Shown in pieces: positions 22,739 to 31,572 of a stretch of DNA of 60,525 nt. The stretch is from Bacteroidia bacterium (lineage in GTDB: Bacteria; Bacteroidota; Bacteroidia; UKL13-3): contig JALONK010000015.1 in the NCBI GenBank assembly GCA_025454975.1, forward strand, positions 1 through 60,525, in the 5' to 3' direction. The position numbers were made by a program, and so were the translations under genes. The notes beneath the pieces are model-generated. The model was not told the origin of the DNA and made no database searches. It saw only the letters and a list, made by a program, of their open reading frames with translations. Position 1 is the first letter of the stretch, and each line of letters starts with the position of its first letter.

Positions 22739-23773
22739 ATGATTACATTTGTTTTATCAGATTCTAAAAGCATGGAGCAAAAGTCAACATCAATTGCTAA
22801 GTTAACTGCACTATGGGCGTTGAGCGAAAGTGGTTTAGGTGGTTTTATGCACGCCTTTAAAATTCCATTCACAGGGTTTTTCCTGGGTGGATTTGCCATT
22901 GTAATAATTACACTAATTGCAGGATTGGCTAAAAATAAAATGGCTGCAATCTTAAAAGCAACCTTATTGGTTGTTTTAGTGAAGGCTGCTGCTAGTCCGC
23001 ACTCCCCGCCTATGGCATATATAGCTGTTGCATTTCAAGGATCAATTGGAGCGATATGCTATGGTGTTCTGCCATCTATAAAAATTGCAGGTCCGTTATT
23101 TGGTGGAGTGGCTCTGTTAGAAAGTGCCATTCAAAAGTTTTTAGTTATGACTTTAATCTTCGGTAAGTCGTTATGGGAAGCCATTGACTTATTTGTTTTA
23201 GGGATATTAAAAGACTTGCACTTGCATACAAACTTTTCATTCAGTTATTGGCTGATATGCACCTACACATTAATTTATGTGATTTGGGGATTGGTTTTGG
23301 GTTGGTGGTCATCGGCATTATGGAGTCGTATTTTGCTCAACAAAAGCAACATCATTCATACATTCGAAACACTGCAACAACCGAAATTAGCTGATATGTC
23401 AAATAAAAAACAAACTTCAAAATGGAAAAAACTACTTGGCTTCGCAGGGATATTAAGCTTTATCATCACTATATTTTTATTTAATGATTTAGGTGGCAAA
23501 GCCGGATATGCCATTTTGCGAACTATTGCTGCGCTATTAATGATTTGGTTTGTTATCAACCCTATTTTTAAATGGCTGCTGCAACAATGGATAAAACGAA
23601 AAAGTAGTGAACAACAACAAGGATTAACTGAAGTGTTAAGTTTATTACCGGAATTAAAAATGTATGTTCAGCCGGCTTTTAATATGGCGAAACAACAACA
23701 TAATGGAGTTAAGCGATATAGCACATTTGTGTTAAATTTAATTACCTTAGCCTTGTTTAGGCATGAAGCGTAA
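22739..23773 (+). CDS. Multi-pass membrane protein heading the Mo-cofactor locus (ECF S-component-like)
   Basis: About 344 residues from ATG 22739 (alternative 22772, MEQKSTSIAKL); the frame is open to 22688, but a promoter-like TATACTTG at 22700-22707 favours a downstream start. About eight hydrophobic segments are seen, the first six in the N-terminal 190 residues (SGLGGFMHAFKIPFTGFFLG, YIAVAFQGSIGAI, IAGPLFGGVALLESA), which by eye recall substrate-binding S components of ECF transporters; the two others lie after a Lys-rich loop. No family is firmly recognised. It overlaps the NTPase-MobA gene by 11 bases, so it is tied to molybdenum cofactor or formate metabolism. Transport of molybdate or a cofactor-related compound is inference. 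Confidence 0.65.
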   Translation: MITFVLSDSKSMEQKSTSIAKLTALWALSESGLGGFMHAFKIPFTGFFLGGFAIVIITLIAGLAKNKMAAILKATLLVVLVKAAASPHSPPMAYIAVAFQGSIGAICYGVLPSIKIAGPLFGGVALLESAIQKFLVMTLIFGKSLWEAIDLFVLGILKDLHLHTNFSFSYWLICTYTLIYVIWGLVLGWWSSALWSRILLNKSNIIHTFETLQQPKLADMSNKKQTSKWKKLLGFAGILSFIITIFLFNDLGGKAGYAILRTIAALLMIWFVINPIFKWLLQQWIKRKSSEQQQGLTEVLSLLPELKMYVQPAFNMAKQQHNGVKRYSTFVLNLITLALFRHEA

Positions 23774-24815
23774 GTCGAACATTTATATTTTAAGTGAACC
23801 CATCCAAAGTGGCAAAACAACCCTATTAATGGATTGGTGTACTAAGCAAACCTCCATTGCAGGAATTTTAACACCTGATGTAAATGGTGCAAGAATGTTG
23901 TATGACATTCATTCAAAAAGGTATTTTCCTTTTCAATTATCAGCTAACGAAACAGGCATTAATATTGGAAGATTTATTTTTAGCGAGCAGTCGTTTAATC
24001 ATGCTAGAATAATAATTGAAGAAGCCATTACACAAGAAAACAATTGGATTGTACTTGATGAAATCGGCCGACTTGAAATAGACCAATTTTCAGGCTTCGA
24101 ACCTCAGGTAACTCAAACGATTAAACAGTTTCAAAAGCATTCTGGTTCAACGCAATTATTACTAGTTATCAGAGATTATTTATTACTACAGGCCATACAA
24201 CATTATCAATTGCACGATGCAATTGTTATTGATAAATTATTCTTGCAAACTACACTTGCTCCGCTATCAGGTTTAGTATTATGTGGAGGTCAAAGTGTCA
24301 GAATGGGTAAAGATAAAGCATGGATTGTATATCATCAGCTACCACAATTTGCGCATGTATATGCAATGATGCAAAGTTGCTGTCCTAAAGTTTTTGTATC
24401 ATGCAACTCAGCACAAATTATTGAAATAAGTAAGACTCATTCATGCATTGAAGACAATGCGACTTTTATTAATAATGGTCCGTTCACCGGTTTATTAAGT
24501 GCATTTACAGCACATCCCAACCAAGCATTTTTAGTATTAGGTTGCGATTATCCAAATTTTAATATGGCTGACATGAAGGCATTAATATCAGCAAGAAGTA
24601 TTGAATATGATGCCGTGTGTTACATCAATTCACAGTCGGGATTTACCGAACCTTTATTGGCTGTTTATGAACCTTCGTGTTCCGAAGCATTATTTAAATT
24701 TTGGGAATCAGGCGGCAGTTCATTAAATCAGTTTTTAACAACCATTCGCACAAAAGTGATTCATGCACAACATGAACAAAATCTTAAAAGTTACGACACC
24801 CCATCAACCATATAA
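23763..24815 (+). CDS. mobA: Fusion of a THEP1-like NTPase and molybdenum cofactor guanylyltransferase MobA
   Basis: A 350-residue two-domain protein. Residues 1 to about 160: P-loop NTPase with Walker A SEPIQSGKTTLL (11-22) and Walker B WIVLDEIGRLEI (about 95-106), the DEIG-x-E pattern of THEP1/COG1618 NTPases. Residues about 168-340: MobA nucleotidyltransferase with LSGLVLCGGQSVRMGKDKAW (GTP loop), NGPFTGLLSAF and LGCDYPNFN (metal site). MobA adds GMP to molybdopterin to form MGD cofactors; the NTPase partner is not the usual MobB and its role is unknown. It overlaps the membrane protein upstream and ends two bases before fdhD, so all three are one transcription unit. Confidence 0.88.
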   Translation: MKRKSNIYILSEPIQSGKTTLLMDWCTKQTSIAGILTPDVNGARMLYDIHSKRYFPFQLSANETGINIGRFIFSEQSFNHARIIIEEAITQENNWIVLDEIGRLEIDQFSGFEPQVTQTIKQFQKHSGSTQLLLVIRDYLLLQAIQHYQLHDAIVIDKLFLQTTLAPLSGLVLCGGQSVRMGKDKAWIVYHQLPQFAHVYAMMQSCCPKVFVSCNSAQIIEISKTHSCIEDNATFINNGPFTGLLSAFTAHPNQAFLVLGCDYPNFNMADMKALISARSIEYDAVCYINSQSGFTEPLLAVYEPSCSEALFKFWESGGSSLNQFLTTIRTKVIHAQHEQNLKSYDTPSTI

Positions 24816-24817
24816 TT

Positions 24818-25672
24818 ATGATTAAACCAACTGTTGCCACGGTATCAACCTTAAAAATAAATAACAATGAAGCCATTGAAACTTCTGATTTATTAGCTGT
24901 GGAAGAACCAATGGAAATTAGAATAGGATACGGTGAGTTATCTAATCGGATGCAAAAAAGTATAGCTGTAACCATGCGAACTCCCGGTCACGATTTTGAA
25001 CTTGCTTTAGGTTTTTTATTAAGTGAAGGTATTATCAATAATTATGATTCGGTGCACAGCATAAAGTATTGTAACGAACTACAAACCTTGAGCGATCAAC
25101 AAAATATAGTGCGAGTAGAGTTGCATACTTGGGTAAAAATTGATGTAAGTAAATTACAACGAAACTTTTACAGCACTAGCAGTTGCGGCATTTGTGGTAA
25201 GGAAAGTATTGAACAGGTGATGTTGCAATGTGCTCCTATTAAACATTCAAAAAATATAAAATTGTCGTATTCCATGCTAACCCTATTGCCACATACGTTA
25301 AGAAACCAACAAACGGTATTTACATATACCGGTGGTATACATGCATGCGGATTGTTTACTGAATCGGGCGAATTAATATTGTTGCGCGAGGATGTGGGTA
25401 GACATAATGCATTAGACAAATTAATAGGAGCCGCGCTTGGATTATCTGTTAATGCATTACCGAACGGTATCTTGGTATTAAGTGGCCGTGCAAGTTTCGA
25501 GTTATTGCAAAAAGCTGCCATGTGCAGCATCCCTATTGTATGTGCAGTTGGTGCACCAAGCAGCTTAGCTGTTGAAACTGCTAAAATGTTCGACATCACA
25601 TTAATTGGTTTTTTAAGAGAACAACGATTTAATGTTTACCATGCCTCGGCACATGTTCAAATAAGTAACTAA
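24818..25672 (+). CDS. fdhD: Sulfur carrier protein FdhD
   Basis: A 284-residue protein. FdhD receives sulfur from an IscS-type desulfurase and passes it to the bis-MGD cofactor of formate dehydrogenase. Seen: TPGHDFELALGFLLSEGII (about residues 50-68), the mobile-loop cysteines in STSSCGICGKESIEQV (CxxC, about 120-135), FTYTGGIHACGLF, REDVGRHNALDKLIGAAL (about 190-207), SGRASFELLQKAA and VGAPSSLAVETA. Length is normal. Its presence predicts an FdhF-type enzyme, which is found 3.6 kb downstream. It begins two bases after the NTPase-MobA fusion. Confidence 0.95.
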   Translation: MIKPTVATVSTLKINNNEAIETSDLLAVEEPMEIRIGYGELSNRMQKSIAVTMRTPGHDFELALGFLLSEGIINNYDSVHSIKYCNELQTLSDQQNIVRVELHTWVKIDVSKLQRNFYSTSSCGICGKESIEQVMLQCAPIKHSKNIKLSYSMLTLLPHTLRNQQTVFTYTGGIHACGLFTESGELILLREDVGRHNALDKLIGAALGLSVNALPNGILVLSGRASFELLQKAAMCSIPIVCAVGAPSSLAVETAKMFDITLIGFLREQRFNVYHASAHVQISN

Positions 25673-25758
25673 AGGTTATTATTTTTTTCGTAAATAAACG
25701 AATGTAGTTTGTGTTCCATGTATAATCTGTTAATTTGGTAGGCTTTAAAATTTGTATA

Positions 25759-27891
25759 ATGCACACAACCAATACCAGGTTTAAACTGGCTTACGACTTT
25801 GCAGATAAAACAGGTGTTTCTTTATTTTTAACGGGAAAAGCAGGAACCGGAAAAACAACTTTATTACAACAATTAAAAGTTAATTCCCGAAAAAAAATTG
25901 CCATAACTGCACCAACCGGAATTGCGGCTATGCATGCAGGCGGTACCACATTACATTCGTTTTTACAATTACCCATCCAACCATATTTATCCAACTATGA
26001 GCATCCCAACGGGTTACAGGTAGGTATTACAAAGGCACAATTTTTATCCAACTTAAGGATGAATAAAGATAAGATAACCTTAATAAGAGAACTTGAGTTG
26101 TTGGTGATTGATGAAGTGAGTATGGTTAGGTGCGATTTATTTGAAGCCGCATCAGATGCATTAAAGTTTATACGAAAAAACAATCAGCCTTTTGGTGGTT
26201 TACCTGTATTACTTCTTGGTGATTTATTTCAATTGCCGCCTGTGGTTATTGAGCATGAGATGGCTATTATTGAAGAAGTTTACAAAGGAAAATATTTTTT
26301 TGATGCTCCTGTTTATAAAGAGTTAAATCCTATTTATATTGAACTTAATCATATATACAGGCAGGAAGACGATAAATTTAAAGATTTATTAAATGCCATT
26401 AGGGTGAATACATTACTGCCCGAACATAAAACAATACTAGGCTCGTTATTAAGGCAAAAAAATCAAGAGGCGATTACCCTAACAACGCACAATAGGGTTG
26501 CAGATGAATTAAACCGTGCAGCTTTAAATCAGTTATCAGAAAAATTATTCCATTTTCATGCCGAAGTTCAAGGAGATTTTTCAGAGAAATCATTTCCAAC
26601 CGAAGCTACTCTTAGTTTGAAAAAAGGGGCAAAAGTGATGTTTGTTAAAAATGATACTAGTGGCGAAAAACGTTATTACAATGGAATGTTAGCAACTATA
26701 GATGATATAAATGAGGATTTGATCATTGTAAGAACGACCGACAAGCAAATAAAAATTGAGTTAGAAAAAGAGAAGTGGAAGAATATTCGTTATTCATTAA
26801 ATAAAGAAACAAGTGAAATTGATGAAGAAGAAACAGGTAGTTTCACTCAATTTCCAATACGATTGGCTTGGGCCATTACCATACATAAAAGTCAGGGATT
26901 AACTTTTGAAAATATAAATATTGATGCCGGTTCATCGTTTGCCAGCGGTCAGGTGTATGTTGCACTCAGCCGTTGTCGTTCACTTGATGGCATATCATTA
27001 CTTACGCCTATTCAAGGTGAACAAATATTAGTTGATGAACGTGTAGTTGATTTTCATCAAAAACAGGTTGATGAAGATTTACTTGAAGCGATGCTGGAAG
27101 AAGCTGCTTATAACTACTCCGTAACCAAGCTGTTAAGTGCAATTAAATTTCATCAGGTTGACTTATGGATACAACAGTTTACTTATGCTTGGCATGAAAC
27201 ATTGATCGAAAAATATGAAGCAGCCAATGCTCTATTTCTTCAATTAAAAAATGCATCATCACACCTGCATCTCACGGGTGAAAAATTTTTAATACAACTT
27301 AATCAATTGTTATCATCTAAAGAAAATGATTTGATAACAGAGAGAATTTTAAAGGCTAAACAATATTTTTCGTATTATTTATTCGATGAACTGATAAAAC
27401 CTATACAATCATTTCAGGATTCAATCGCAAAGGCTAAAAGGGTGAAATTGTTAAATGCCGACCTAAATAAGTTGATTAATGATTTATGGAAAAAATTAAA
27501 TGCTATTCAATACCTGACTTTTGGTAATGAAGAACTTCCTATAACCTACATCAATCGTAATCAACCAATCAATAAGGAACGCAAAAAAGTGGAGAAAGGT
27601 GCAACTTATAAAGAGTCATTAAACCTTTATTTACAAGGCAAAAATATACAAATGATTGCGGCTGAACGGGGACTATCAACCACCACTATTGAAGGACATT
27701 TAAGCCGATATATTGCAACAGGTGAAATCAATATTCATGATTTTTTAACGGAGGAAGCACTTACAGAAATTGCAAGTCACATAAAAGAGGATGAAGCAGC
27801 TTTACAACCTTTATATGCTGCACTTAACGGTAAATTCTCCTTTGGTCAATTGCGAATGGCCATGGCACATTTAAAACCTCATCTTCAATAA
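25759..27891 (+). CDS. PIF1-like helicase with C-terminal helix-turn-helix
   Basis: About 710 residues from ATG 25759 (MHTTNTRFKLAYDFADKTG; the frame is open eight codons upstream). Order: Walker A FLTGKAGTGKTTLL (about 24-37), TAPTGIAAMHAGGTTLHSF (motif Ia), ELLVIDEVSMVRCDLFE (DExx), GDLFQLPPVV, then a SH3-like insertion and TIHKSQGLTFENI (motif V) plus ASGQVYVALSRCRSL (motif VI): superfamily 1B, PIF1/RecD type. The C-terminal third is helical, ending in a HTH_40-like segment (YKESLNLYLQGKNIQMIAAE, TTTIEGHLSRYIATGEI) also found at the end of RecQ proteins. It probably unwinds DNA or G-quadruplexes. It interrupts the Mo locus. Confidence 0.9.
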   Translation: MHTTNTRFKLAYDFADKTGVSLFLTGKAGTGKTTLLQQLKVNSRKKIAITAPTGIAAMHAGGTTLHSFLQLPIQPYLSNYEHPNGLQVGITKAQFLSNLRMNKDKITLIRELELLVIDEVSMVRCDLFEAASDALKFIRKNNQPFGGLPVLLLGDLFQLPPVVIEHEMAIIEEVYKGKYFFDAPVYKELNPIYIELNHIYRQEDDKFKDLLNAIRVNTLLPEHKTILGSLLRQKNQEAITLTTHNRVADELNRAALNQLSEKLFHFHAEVQGDFSEKSFPTEATLSLKKGAKVMFVKNDTSGEKRYYNGMLATIDDINEDLIIVRTTDKQIKIELEKEKWKNIRYSLNKETSEIDEEETGSFTQFPIRLAWAITIHKSQGLTFENINIDAGSSFASGQVYVALSRCRSLDGISLLTPIQGEQILVDERVVDFHQKQVDEDLLEAMLEEAAYNYSVTKLLSAIKFHQVDLWIQQFTYAWHETLIEKYEAANALFLQLKNASSHLHLTGEKFLIQLNQLLSSKENDLITERILKAKQYFSYYLFDELIKPIQSFQDSIAKAKRVKLLNADLNKLINDLWKKLNAIQYLTFGNEELPITYINRNQPINKERKKVEKGATYKESLNLYLQGKNIQMIAAERGLSTTTIEGHLSRYIATGEINIHDFLTEEALTEIASHIKEDEAALQPLYAALNGKFSFGQLRMAMAHLKPHLQ

Positions 27892-27953: not shown

Positions 27954-28322
27954 ATGAAATTACGTATAAAAGGAAACAGCATCAGAATCAGGTTAACCAA
28001 AACCGAAGTGAGTAACTTTGAACAAAATGGATTTTACCAAGAAGAAACCAACTTTGGAAATGCCAAATTGGTATATGCCATCAAACGAAGTTCAACACAC
28101 CAACAATTAAGTACCGATATGCTTGAGTCGTGCATTACCTTATATATCCCGGAAACTATTGCTAACGAATGGACAAGTACTGATTTAGTCGGCTTTCAAA
28201 ATAAATATCAACTACCGAATGGGAGCGAAATGTTTTTGTTGGTAGAAAAAGATTTTGTGTGTTTAGATAATACATTTGAAGACCAAAGTGATAATTACCC
28301 GAACCCTAATGCACATTGTTAA
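27954..28322 (+). CDS. Small DUF7009-like protein
   Basis: A 122-residue soluble protein beginning MKLRIKGNSIRIRLTKTEVS, a start I associate with the DUF7009 family of Bacteroidota; the assignment is from memory and moderate. It is beta-rich, with SCITLYIPETIANEWTSTDL near the middle and an acidic tail that contains no cysteine pair. A promoter-like CATATTTG at 27926-27933 with GTTG about 20 bases upstream may start a transcript here. It overlaps the next gene by 14 bases and stands two genes before fdhF, suggesting a helper role for that enzyme. Function unknown. Confidence 0.7.
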   Translation: MKLRIKGNSIRIRLTKTEVSNFEQNGFYQEETNFGNAKLVYAIKRSSTHQQLSTDMLESCITLYIPETIANEWTSTDLVGFQNKYQLPNGSEMFLLVEKDFVCLDNTFEDQSDNYPNPNAHC

Positions 28323-29262: not shown

Positions 29263-31572
29263 ATGACATCAGATGCGGAAAAGCCTAATCCGGAAAACCC
29301 GGAAGTGTTATTACAGTTAAAGCTTACTGATCCTAAGAAAACAGCAGCAGGCATTCCGGCAGTTGTATCGGCAGTTAAGCATGTGTTTAGTGAAATGGAT
29401 GTACTTAGAGGTACGAAGGCGTTGTTAAAAGTGAATCAAAAAGATGGCTTTGACTGTCCGGGATGTGCTTGGCCCGACCCTGATGATGATCGGTCAACTG
29501 TTGCCGAATATTGCGAAAATGGTGCTAAGGCAATTGCTGAAGAAGCGACAACCAAAGCACTACGCTCTGAGTTTTTTAGTAAAAATAGTTTAGCTTCATT
29601 AGCCAATTTGAGTGATTATGAAATTGGGAAAAAAGGACGTGTAGCCCAGCCGGTTTATTTGCCCGAGGGAGGAACACATTACAAAGAAGTTAGTTGGGAA
29701 TTTGCTTTTGAGAAAATTGCCGAAAAGTTACAGGCGCTGTCCTCTCCTAATGATGCTATTTTTTATACATCGGGAAGAACCAGCAACGAAGCTGCATTTT
29801 TATATCAATTATTTGTACGTGAATTTGGCACCAATAATTTGCCTGATTGTTCAAACATGTGTCATGAAAGTAGTGGTGTCGCATTAGGCGAAAGCGTAGG
29901 TATAGGAAAAGGTTCGGTTAAGCTGGAAGATTTTTATGAGGCCGAAGTGATTTTAATCTTGGGACAAAATCCGGGCACTAATCATCCACGAATGTTAAGT
30001 GCTTTACAACAAGCAAAAGCAAATGGCTGTATCATTATTTCAGTTAATCCATTATTAGAAACCGGATTAATAGGGTTTAATAATCCACAAAAAATTAATG
30101 GGGTTCTTGGTATAAAATCAAAACTCACTGATGAATATTTACAGGTAAAAATAAATGGTGATTTAGCTCTTTTAAAAGCAATTGAAATGGTATGGTGGGA
30201 AGAAGAACAAAAAAATCCGGGTACTGTATTTAATCATGAGTTTATTAATAAACATACCTCAGGATATGATGCGTTTATTGATACGCTAAAAAATTATTCA
30301 CTTGACGAACTCAGCACCATTTGCGGTATTTCGGTTGAACAAATCAAACAAACTGCTAACTTAATTAAGCATAAAAATAAAATTATTGCTTGTTGGGCTA
30401 TGGGATTAACCCAACATAAAAATGCAGTAAGTACCATTAAGGAAGTAGTAAATTTATTGTTATTAAAAGGAAGTATAGGAAAACCCGGCGCAGGCACTTG
30501 TCCGGTGCGAGGCCACAGCAATGTGCAAGGCGATCGTACCATGGGTATTTATGAAAAACCTTCCAAACAATTTATAGAACGATTAAACCAATATTTTAAC
30601 ATTAATGCTCCGTATGAACATGGATATGATGTGGTAGAAGCCATAAAAGTAATGCATGATCAACCGGGAAAAGTATTTATTGCCATGGGTGGTAATTTTT
30701 TGTCGGCAACACCTGATACAAAATATACTGCTGAGGCTTTACAAAATTGTGCATTAACGGTTCATATTAGTACTAAACTTAATCGAAGTCATTTAATTAC
30801 CGGTAAGGAAGCATTAATACTTCCTACTTTTGGAAGAAGTGATATGGATGTAAACAATGCCGGAGAATTGCAATTGGTGAGTTGCGAAAATTCGATGGGA
30901 GTTGTACAACTTAGTAAAGGAAGTTTAAAACCGGTGAGTAAACAACTGTTAAGTGAAAGTGTTATTGTTTGTCGGCTGGCTCAGGCTGTCTTTAAATCAA
31001 ATACAAAAATTGACTGGAGTAAATATATCGCCCATTACGATAACATCAGAAATGATATTGAGCAGGTGATTCCGGGATTTGAATCCTACAACGAACGATT
31101 GCGCAAACCCGGTGGATTTTATCTGCCCAACGCATCAAGGGAAGGAAAGTTTAATACCCTTACAGGTAAAGCTAACTTTAATGTTGCTGAAATTACACAT
31201 CAACCCTTACAAGAAAATGAATTGGTTATGATGACCATCAGAACTCACGACCAATTTAATACAACCATTTATGGATTGGATGATCGTTATAGAGGTATTT
31301 ATAAAGAAAGAAGAGTAATCATGATGAATGAGCAGGATATAGTTAAACAAGGTTTTAAACCGGGAGAACTTGTTGACTTATATAATTATGATGGAGGAAT
31401 AGAAAGGGTAGCTAAAAAATTTATCATTGTGCCTTATGCAATTCCTCAACAAAACTGCGCAACTTACTTTCCTGAAACAAATGTTTTGGTTCCTATAACG
31501 TCGGTAGCTGAAAAAAGCAATACGCCAACCAGTAAATTTGTGGTTGTAAAATTAAAAAGGCATCTAACTTAA
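29263..31572 (+). CDS. FdhF/YdeP-family molybdopterin oxidoreductase alpha subunit
   Basis: A 769-residue cytoplasmic enzyme without Tat signal. The N-terminus holds DGFDCPGCAWPDPDDDRSTV (about residues 62-81), the conserved CPGCAWP of the YdeP/TIGR01701 branch. Also seen: NMCHESSGVALGESVGIGKG (cofactor/active-site region), VILILGQNPGTNHPRMLSAL (MGD binding), GTCPVRGHSNVQGDRTMGI, and the C-terminal molydopterin dinucleotide domain (NTLTGKANFNV, MTIRTHDQFNTTIYGLDDRY). The enzyme is related to formate dehydrogenases; true substrate in this branch is unsettled (YdeP affects acid resistance in E. coli). FdhD and MobA are encoded in the same locus, so it should carry a sulfurated bis-MGD cofactor. 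Confidence 0.93.
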   Translation: MTSDAEKPNPENPEVLLQLKLTDPKKTAAGIPAVVSAVKHVFSEMDVLRGTKALLKVNQKDGFDCPGCAWPDPDDDRSTVAEYCENGAKAIAEEATTKALRSEFFSKNSLASLANLSDYEIGKKGRVAQPVYLPEGGTHYKEVSWEFAFEKIAEKLQALSSPNDAIFYTSGRTSNEAAFLYQLFVREFGTNNLPDCSNMCHESSGVALGESVGIGKGSVKLEDFYEAEVILILGQNPGTNHPRMLSALQQAKANGCIIISVNPLLETGLIGFNNPQKINGVLGIKSKLTDEYLQVKINGDLALLKAIEMVWWEEEQKNPGTVFNHEFINKHTSGYDAFIDTLKNYSLDELSTICGISVEQIKQTANLIKHKNKIIACWAMGLTQHKNAVSTIKEVVNLLLLKGSIGKPGAGTCPVRGHSNVQGDRTMGIYEKPSKQFIERLNQYFNINAPYEHGYDVVEAIKVMHDQPGKVFIAMGGNFLSATPDTKYTAEALQNCALTVHISTKLNRSHLITGKEALILPTFGRSDMDVNNAGELQLVSCENSMGVVQLSKGSLKPVSKQLLSESVIVCRLAQAVFKSNTKIDWSKYIAHYDNIRNDIEQVIPGFESYNERLRKPGGFYLPNASREGKFNTLTGKANFNVAEITHQPLQENELVMMTIRTHDQFNTTIYGLDDRYRGIYKERRVIMMNEQDIVKQGFKPGELVDLYNYDGGIERVAKKFIIVPYAIPQQNCATYFPETNVLVPITSVAEKSNTPTSKFVVVKLKRHLT

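Follow-up and report, generated by a model that had tools for sequence, protein, structure and literature searches.

A THEP1-type NTPase fused to MobA is linked to a putative ECF-like membrane protein and may take part in the import of ready-made molybdopterin cofactor in Bacteroidota

In the 60,525-nucleotide stretch of Bacteroidia DNA analysed here (the window; contig JALONK010000015.1 of assembly GCA_025454975.1), one gene joins a THEP1-type NTPase to MobA directly behind the gene of an undescribed membrane protein, c1, and we judge it somewhat probable that these genes form an operon for scavenging molybdopterin cofactor (Moco), in which c1 and THEP1 would import the preformed cofactor and the fused MobA would make MGD from it. 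The proposal builds on the identities of the domains, the linkage of c1 to THEP1, the existence of further fusions, the association with molybdoenzymes and the absence of MoaC, MoaE and MoeA, each of which was established by computation.

The fusion gene (23763-24815, + strand) is a single ORF of 350 amino acids. Within its first half (residues 1-162; 23763..24248, +), residues 9-122 matched the Pfam NTPase_1/THEP1 family (PF03266) at 32.0 bits against a cut-off of 23.9, stand-alone THEP1 relatives scored 42.6 and 91 bits with the same family, and when the fusion profile was compared with solved structures this half found Aquifex THEP1 (1ye8) at E 9.3e-4. It carries a P-loop, SEPIQSGKT (residues 11-19; 23793..23819, +), and a Walker B motif, WIVLDEIGRLE (residues 95-105; 24045..24077, +), of which G17 and K18 in the former and D99 and E100 in the latter were invariant across 27 aligned fusions; the protein is predicted to hydrolyse NTP. 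MobB (PF03205) was ruled out as the identity of this half because no MobB profile matched it: the family was absent from the Pfam matches of the fusion gene at E<=1, and the fusion gene was absent from the MobB matches of its own genome (E<=1). In its P-loop, its DE Walker B, its Pfam match and its profile match to 1ye8 the half resembles the THEP1/NTPCR/COG1618 NTPases, a family to whose members the Aquifex THEP1 paper assigns no known role (PMC1079890). It is unlike the known members, which are stand-alone proteins according to the same source (PMC1079890), in being constantly paired in an operon with the gene of a membrane protein and in its frequent fusion to MobA.

The second half (residues 166-350; 24258..24815, +) matched the MobA-like family NTP_transf_3 (PF12804) over residues 170-317 at 88.5 bits (cut-off 27), and the matches of NCBIfam MobA models were confined to it; the MobA equivalog TIGR02665 scored the fusion at 86.9 bits, below its cut-off of 151.85. 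Against solved structures the profile of this half found E. coli MobA at E about 1e-22, and in an AlphaFold model of the fusion (pLDDT 91.5) it superposed on E. coli MobA (1e5k and its siblings) with Z 22.9 and an rmsd of 2.5 over 180 residues. The MobA half dominated the comparisons of the model with structures by Foldseek and VIA, and none of the 50 matches listed lay over the THEP1 half. The sequence-only reading, which had named a THEP1-type half in place of MobB and a complete MobA domain, is confirmed in that the gene product combines a P-loop NTPase of the THEP1 family with a MobA that looks intact. In linking a P-loop protein to MobA it is like the bifunctional MobA/MobB MGD proteins (PRK14490 etc.), but its P-loop half is THEP1, and the PRK14490-type model matches the MobA half only, at 151 bits against a cut-off of 354.

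The fusion is not unique to the window sequence, a possibility ruled out by its occurrence in 24 of the 64 genomes of the window's family, where the THEP1 half was found in 28 genomes and the whole one-frame fusion in 24 of these, and in 28/80 named c1 loci (the best 80 of 166). Together with its presence on CP012155.1, a complete chromosome from Bacteroidetes bacterium UKL13-3, these counts show that it is not an assembly artefact. The genome of the window itself (3.44 Mb in 83 contigs, 98% complete) contains no second THEP1 and no MobB over cut-off.

What accompanies the NTPase most regularly is c1 (22772..23773, + strand), which is given an ATG start at 22772, the mechanical ORF beginning earlier at a TTG (22688). 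In the window the ATG of THEP1 overlaps the stop of c1 by 11 bases. Among the first 17 fusion loci, the window included, c1 lay upstream in 17/17; it also precedes a MobA-less THEP1 (L062), and three MobA genes without THEP1 (L064-L066) had no c1 ahead of them. Scanning named genomes with a c1 alignment gave 166 relatives, and in the best 80 of these 166 THEP1 was the next same-strand gene after c1 at all 77 testable loci, the remaining 3 being untestable since their contigs end within 127 bases past c1. The two genes touch or overlap in 68 of the 77, one of which (L225) has its THEP1 broken over two frames. At 28 of these loci THEP1 carried a fused MobA, a separate MobA came next in 20, no MobA came next in 27, and 2 were cut by the contig end. 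In a tree of c1 plus THEP1, made by a quick method and subject to a long-branch warning, the fused state appeared in several clades, the starred branches requiring at least four changes, and one fused clade enclosed a THEP1 that lacks MobA (G051/L217). MobA, therefore, comes and goes and c1 stays: the main partner of the NTPase is c1, and the link to MobA is secondary. A sample of 395 genomes across the phylum contained c1 in 31, THEP1 (A3) in 29 and both in 22; counting against the import proposal are the 9 of 31 c1-bearing genomes without a THEP1 match and the 7 of 29 THEP1-bearing genomes without a c1 match, although two of these 7 have one-chain forms and one a split form. THEP1 of the same subfamily was seen in G219, G385, G396 and G239, genomes without a c1 match (L145 6762-7295; L158 6119-6589; L159 6422-6913; L160 6817-7320).

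These arrangements bear on the role that the sequence-only reading had derived from the fusion, namely that THEP1, standing in for MobB, may supply MobA with nucleotide or metal, or may regulate how MGD is formed. The part of it that stands is the functional link itself, since the fusion is recurrent, and a MobB stand-in would agree with the fusion in 28/77 loci, with the adjacent MobA in 20 more and with a genome lacking MobB over cut-off. The constant partner, however, which adjoins in 77/77, is c1 and not MobA, so that the NTPase half is not always beside mobA (at 27/77 testable loci no MobA comes next); c1 and THEP1 can form a single chain; and MobA without THEP1 is common among MoaE-bearing relatives. 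XdhAB enzymes, moreover, lie beside c1-THEP1 in loci with no MobA next, which argues against an MGD-specific role. Regulation of MGD formation thus fails to explain a distribution that includes MobA-less loci, one-chain forms and XdhAB loci without MobA and that uptake of the cofactor does explain, and we hold this reading to be highly improbable.

Pfam and NCBIfam yielded no name for c1, and a known identity in either was rejected because none matched; searches of c1 or its halves by sequence against solved structures gave nothing credible. Residues about 1-180 appear to make up a six-helix, ECF S-component-like half, and residues about 181-333 a half that appears T-component-like by weak matches. 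The AlphaFold model of c1 (mean pLDDT 89.4) returned nothing at E<=0.001 with Foldseek. With VIA the top five matches, which lay over residues about 1-190, were all ECF S subunits, with Z from 11.5 to 9.3, among them TmRibU (Z 11.5, rmsd 3.9 over 159), 4huq_S (Z 10.4) and a folate ECF subunit (Z 9.3), with unrelated folds at 8 or less; the best Z falls short of about 13, the value up to which the tool urges caution with bundles of helices, as these can score so high through a common arrangement. At loci where the halves are separate genes, the lone S half (c16) gave weak matches to PF09819 (ABC_cobalt) in 6/8 (best E 5e-4) and to PF09605 (Trep_Strep) in 5/8 (best E 2e-4), which we take to be ECF S-type families, and the lone T half (c22) gave weak CbiQ/EcfT matches in 5/8, the best at E 0.038. 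The model suggests, although it does not prove, that the front half of c1 resembles the vitamin-binding (S) subunits of ECF transporters, and the rear half may be T-like, to judge by its weak matches. While the RibU- and folate-ECF-like model of its front half and the weak matches of the lone halves recall the ECF vitamin importers, c1 differs from them in having its S- and T-like parts fused, in its molybdenum-enzyme setting and in the RecA-type NTPase that takes the place of an ABC ATPase gene beside it. The neighbourhood of c1 was searched for the motif pair of an ABC ATPase (P-loop plus signature), and none was found within two genes at the 80 loci or within three genes at 58 whole-genome loci.

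Two rarer gene arrangements suggest how the parts may be ordered. In L140, L141, L142, L143 and L161, c1 is split into an S (c16) protein of about 200 residues and a T (c22) protein of about 185, behind which come a TonB-dependent receptor and then THEP1; the first protein matches the c1 profile and the second occupies the place of c1's second half. At L144 and L162 a single chain, without MobA, contains the membrane part and THEP1, and in it THEP1 continues from the C-terminal end of the T-like half. It is at that end of the T component that ECF ATPases dock. The split and one-chain forms suggest the order outer-membrane receptor, inner-membrane S- and T-like parts, NTPase; no TonB receptor adjoins the genes of the window.

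The fusion of THEP1 at this docking place, and its position beside c1 in 27/77 loci with no MobA next, speak against a rather unlikely reading in which the importer is as we propose, but THEP1 modifies or traps the cofactor before MobA, for instance by phosphorylating or nucleotidylating it, much as cobalamin adenosyltransferase acts on imported B12. It is nevertheless a serious rival, because the closest fold to Aquifex THEP1 is reported to be cob(I)alamin adenosyltransferase, at Z 9.9 (PMC1079890); THEP1 is, besides, fused to MobA, the next enzyme, and the lack of a nearby ABC ATPase gene could mean that ATPases are shared from elsewhere. Against it, the Aquifex THEP1 paper argues against kinase or adenosyltransferase activity (PMC1079890).

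Directly after the fusion, as had been noted before, lies fdhD (24818-25672, + strand), the gene of a sulfurtransferase for formate dehydrogenase, and further downstream are the genes of a DUF7009 protein (27954..28322, +) and of an FdhF/YdeP-type molybdopterin oxidoreductase (29263..31572, +; TIGR01701 at 897 bits, cut-off 582), which keeps the catalytic CH motif (residue 200) and is the presumed client of the window's module. The molybdopterin Fe4S4 domain (PF04879) was not found in the window's own genome at E<=0.001. Relatives of the window's FdhD, DUF7009 protein and FdhF/YdeP-like enzyme occur in 34/80, 24/80 and 25/80 of the named loci (the best 80 of 166), respectively, and the DUF7009 protein, which recurs with fdhD and the FdhF-like enzyme, is likely an accessory of the latter. 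Between fdhD and the DUF7009 gene sits a Pif1-like helicase with a C-terminal HTH_40 (25735-27891), relatives of which were near c1 in only 3/80 loci. Taken together, c1 loci adjoin every molybdoenzyme class (FdhF/YdeP, Psr/Nap-like, XdhAB, IorAB-like and MOSC protein), and a named Mo gene lies within six genes of c1 in 51/80 loci. Psr/Phs-like and Nap-like enzymes stand beside the c1 loci of other families, and the named loci include XdhAB with XdhC and a guanine-deaminase-like protein as well as IorAB-like pairs, the XdhAB and IorAB-like clusters being named from one Pfam-identified representative each. The preservation of MobA, FdhD, XdhC and the enzymes as neighbours with open reading frames across distant families and the intact CH motif of the window enzyme both run counter to the idea that the molybdoproteins here are relics or Mo-free forms and that c1-THEP1 serves something else. 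Mo-independent forms were raised for orphan molybdoproteins by Peng et al. (PMC6147048); here we consider such an explanation very improbable.

The pathway that makes the cofactor was followed through the markers MoaC, MoaE and MoeA, with MoaE sought at E<=1e-10. In the family of 64 genomes MoaE was present in 0/28 with THEP1 versus 27/36 without it (Fisher p 1.1e-10, kinship ignored), and the genera g2, g9 and g10 contain both types. MoaC and MoeA were likewise found in 0/28 THEP1-bearing family genomes, the window's included, versus 10/10 of the MoaE-bearing controls searched. With none of the three, molybdopterin synthesis and Mo insertion would not proceed by the known route. Across the phylum sample MoaE occurred in 1/31 c1-bearing genomes versus 146/364 others (kinship ignored), the single exception being G139, which has no THEP1 match. 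The molybdate transporter component ModB was over cut-off in 0/64 family genomes, and the window's own genome had none at E<=1e-5; in the phylum sample it was over cut-off in 0/31 c1-bearing genomes versus 132/364 others (kinship ignored), with ModB-like matches under cut-off, at E 1e-42 to 1e-45, in the c1-bearing G082, G098, G110 and G456.

This lack of ModB over cut-off in 31 c1-bearing and 64 family genomes would fit c1-THEP1 being itself an importer of molybdate or tungstate, with the pterin made by an unrecognised route. ECF systems that carry metals exist. We think such a function quite improbable, as MoaC, MoaE and MoeA are all missing in 28/28 family genomes, so that import of Mo alone would not help, and the best structural matches of c1 are vitamin-binding S subunits. 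Unknown transporters or biosynthetic parts had been proposed for such bacteria by Peng et al. in 2018 (PMC6147048). ModABC, WtpABC and TupABC would likewise feed molybdoenzymes, yet they share no component with c1-THEP1.

Where MobA, FdhD and a molybdoenzyme are kept in one operon while the pathway is gone, the simplest reading is that the cofactor enters via c1 with THEP1 as the motor. We infer Mo-molybdopterin as the cargo, import as the direction and hydrolysis by THEP1 as the drive. The S half of c1 would bind the substrate, and c1 together with THEP1 would bring the preformed molybdopterin cofactor, most likely already loaded with Mo, in through the inner membrane; in some lineages the TonB-dependent receptor of the same operon would move it across the outer membrane. 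THEP1 would do the work that ABC ATPases usually do, powering or gating the import step. On leaving c1 the cofactor would be handed at once to the fused MobA for conversion to MGD, and this would be supplied, with FdhD, to the formate-dehydrogenase-like FdhF/YdeP-type enzyme downstream. The S-T-THEP1 chain of L144/L162 and the THEP1-MobA fusion put membrane, NTPase and MobA in line. Against import counts the chemical instability of free Moco (PMC9793310). Uptake of ready-made cofactor has a precedent in dietary Moco of C. elegans, which is, however, an animal whose transport route that source gives as unknown (PMC9793310). Tentatively, and with the odds a little against it, c1-THEP1 could be the first dedicated importer of ready-made Moco and a new class of energised transporter, an ECF-like S-T protein driven by a RecA-type NTPase (THEP1), in some lineages fed by its own TonB receptor and here wired to MobA.

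In the literature searched, which held few subscription journals, we found neither a bacterial Moco importer nor a link between THEP1 and molybdenum. A possible role in taking up molybdopterin has been put forward, as speculation only, for some outer-membrane proteins of the T11SS in a 2025 paper (PMC12282271). Peng et al. (2018) listed 292 + 13 bacteria that have Moco-dependent enzymes and no complete Moco pathway, most of them without a known Mo transporter, and suggested unknown biosynthetic parts or Mo-free forms (PMC6147048). The c1-THEP1 module occurs in genomes that lack the pathway, and import by it would be a testable solution to this puzzle. If it is true, Moco would join B12, thiamine and folate among the goods that microbial communities share, many Bacteroidota would be Moco auxotrophs whose molybdoenzyme activity depends on their neighbours, and the THEP1 family, an orphan from bacteria to man, would gain its first cellular function.

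In genomes of the window's family the module would replace the pathway as a whole, and in other families it can accompany part of it. Among the 30 other c1-bearing genomes of the phylum sample, 18 lack MoaC, MoeA and MoaE, 9 have MoaC and MoeA without MoaE, MoeA alone was found in 2, and all three in G139; the genomes that retain MoaC or MoeA indicate that replacing the pathway is not all that the module does, and in the families f18/f36 the complementarity between c1 and pathway genes is only partial. In G139, with its MoaC, MoaE and MoeA, a c1 without THEP1 overlaps the gene of a MOSC-domain protein (L137 6301-8042), where the fold perhaps has another use. Genes for moaA, moaC, a MOSC protein and moeA are clustered in L255, L256, L257, L259 and L260 (G137, G299, G098, G125 and G211), genomes with no MoaE at E<=1e-10 anywhere, which may mean that molybdopterin is made there without MoaE or that their MoaE has diverged strongly. 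Several c1-bearing genomes have a one-domain permease of the chromate-transporter family and a CMD-family protein ahead of moaA-moaC-MOSC-moeA-mobA (L255 6786-7693, L256 11570-12453, L259 7485-8316, L260 7322-8160; in L255 and L256 the permease passes the PF02417 cut-off), and this permease is a candidate carrier of molybdate/tungstate; members of the same CMD family also adjoin c1 at other loci. A further lookalike of the S-like half, recognised by eye and without a Pfam match, lies in G211 (L260 17582-18274) beside cytochrome bc-like genes.
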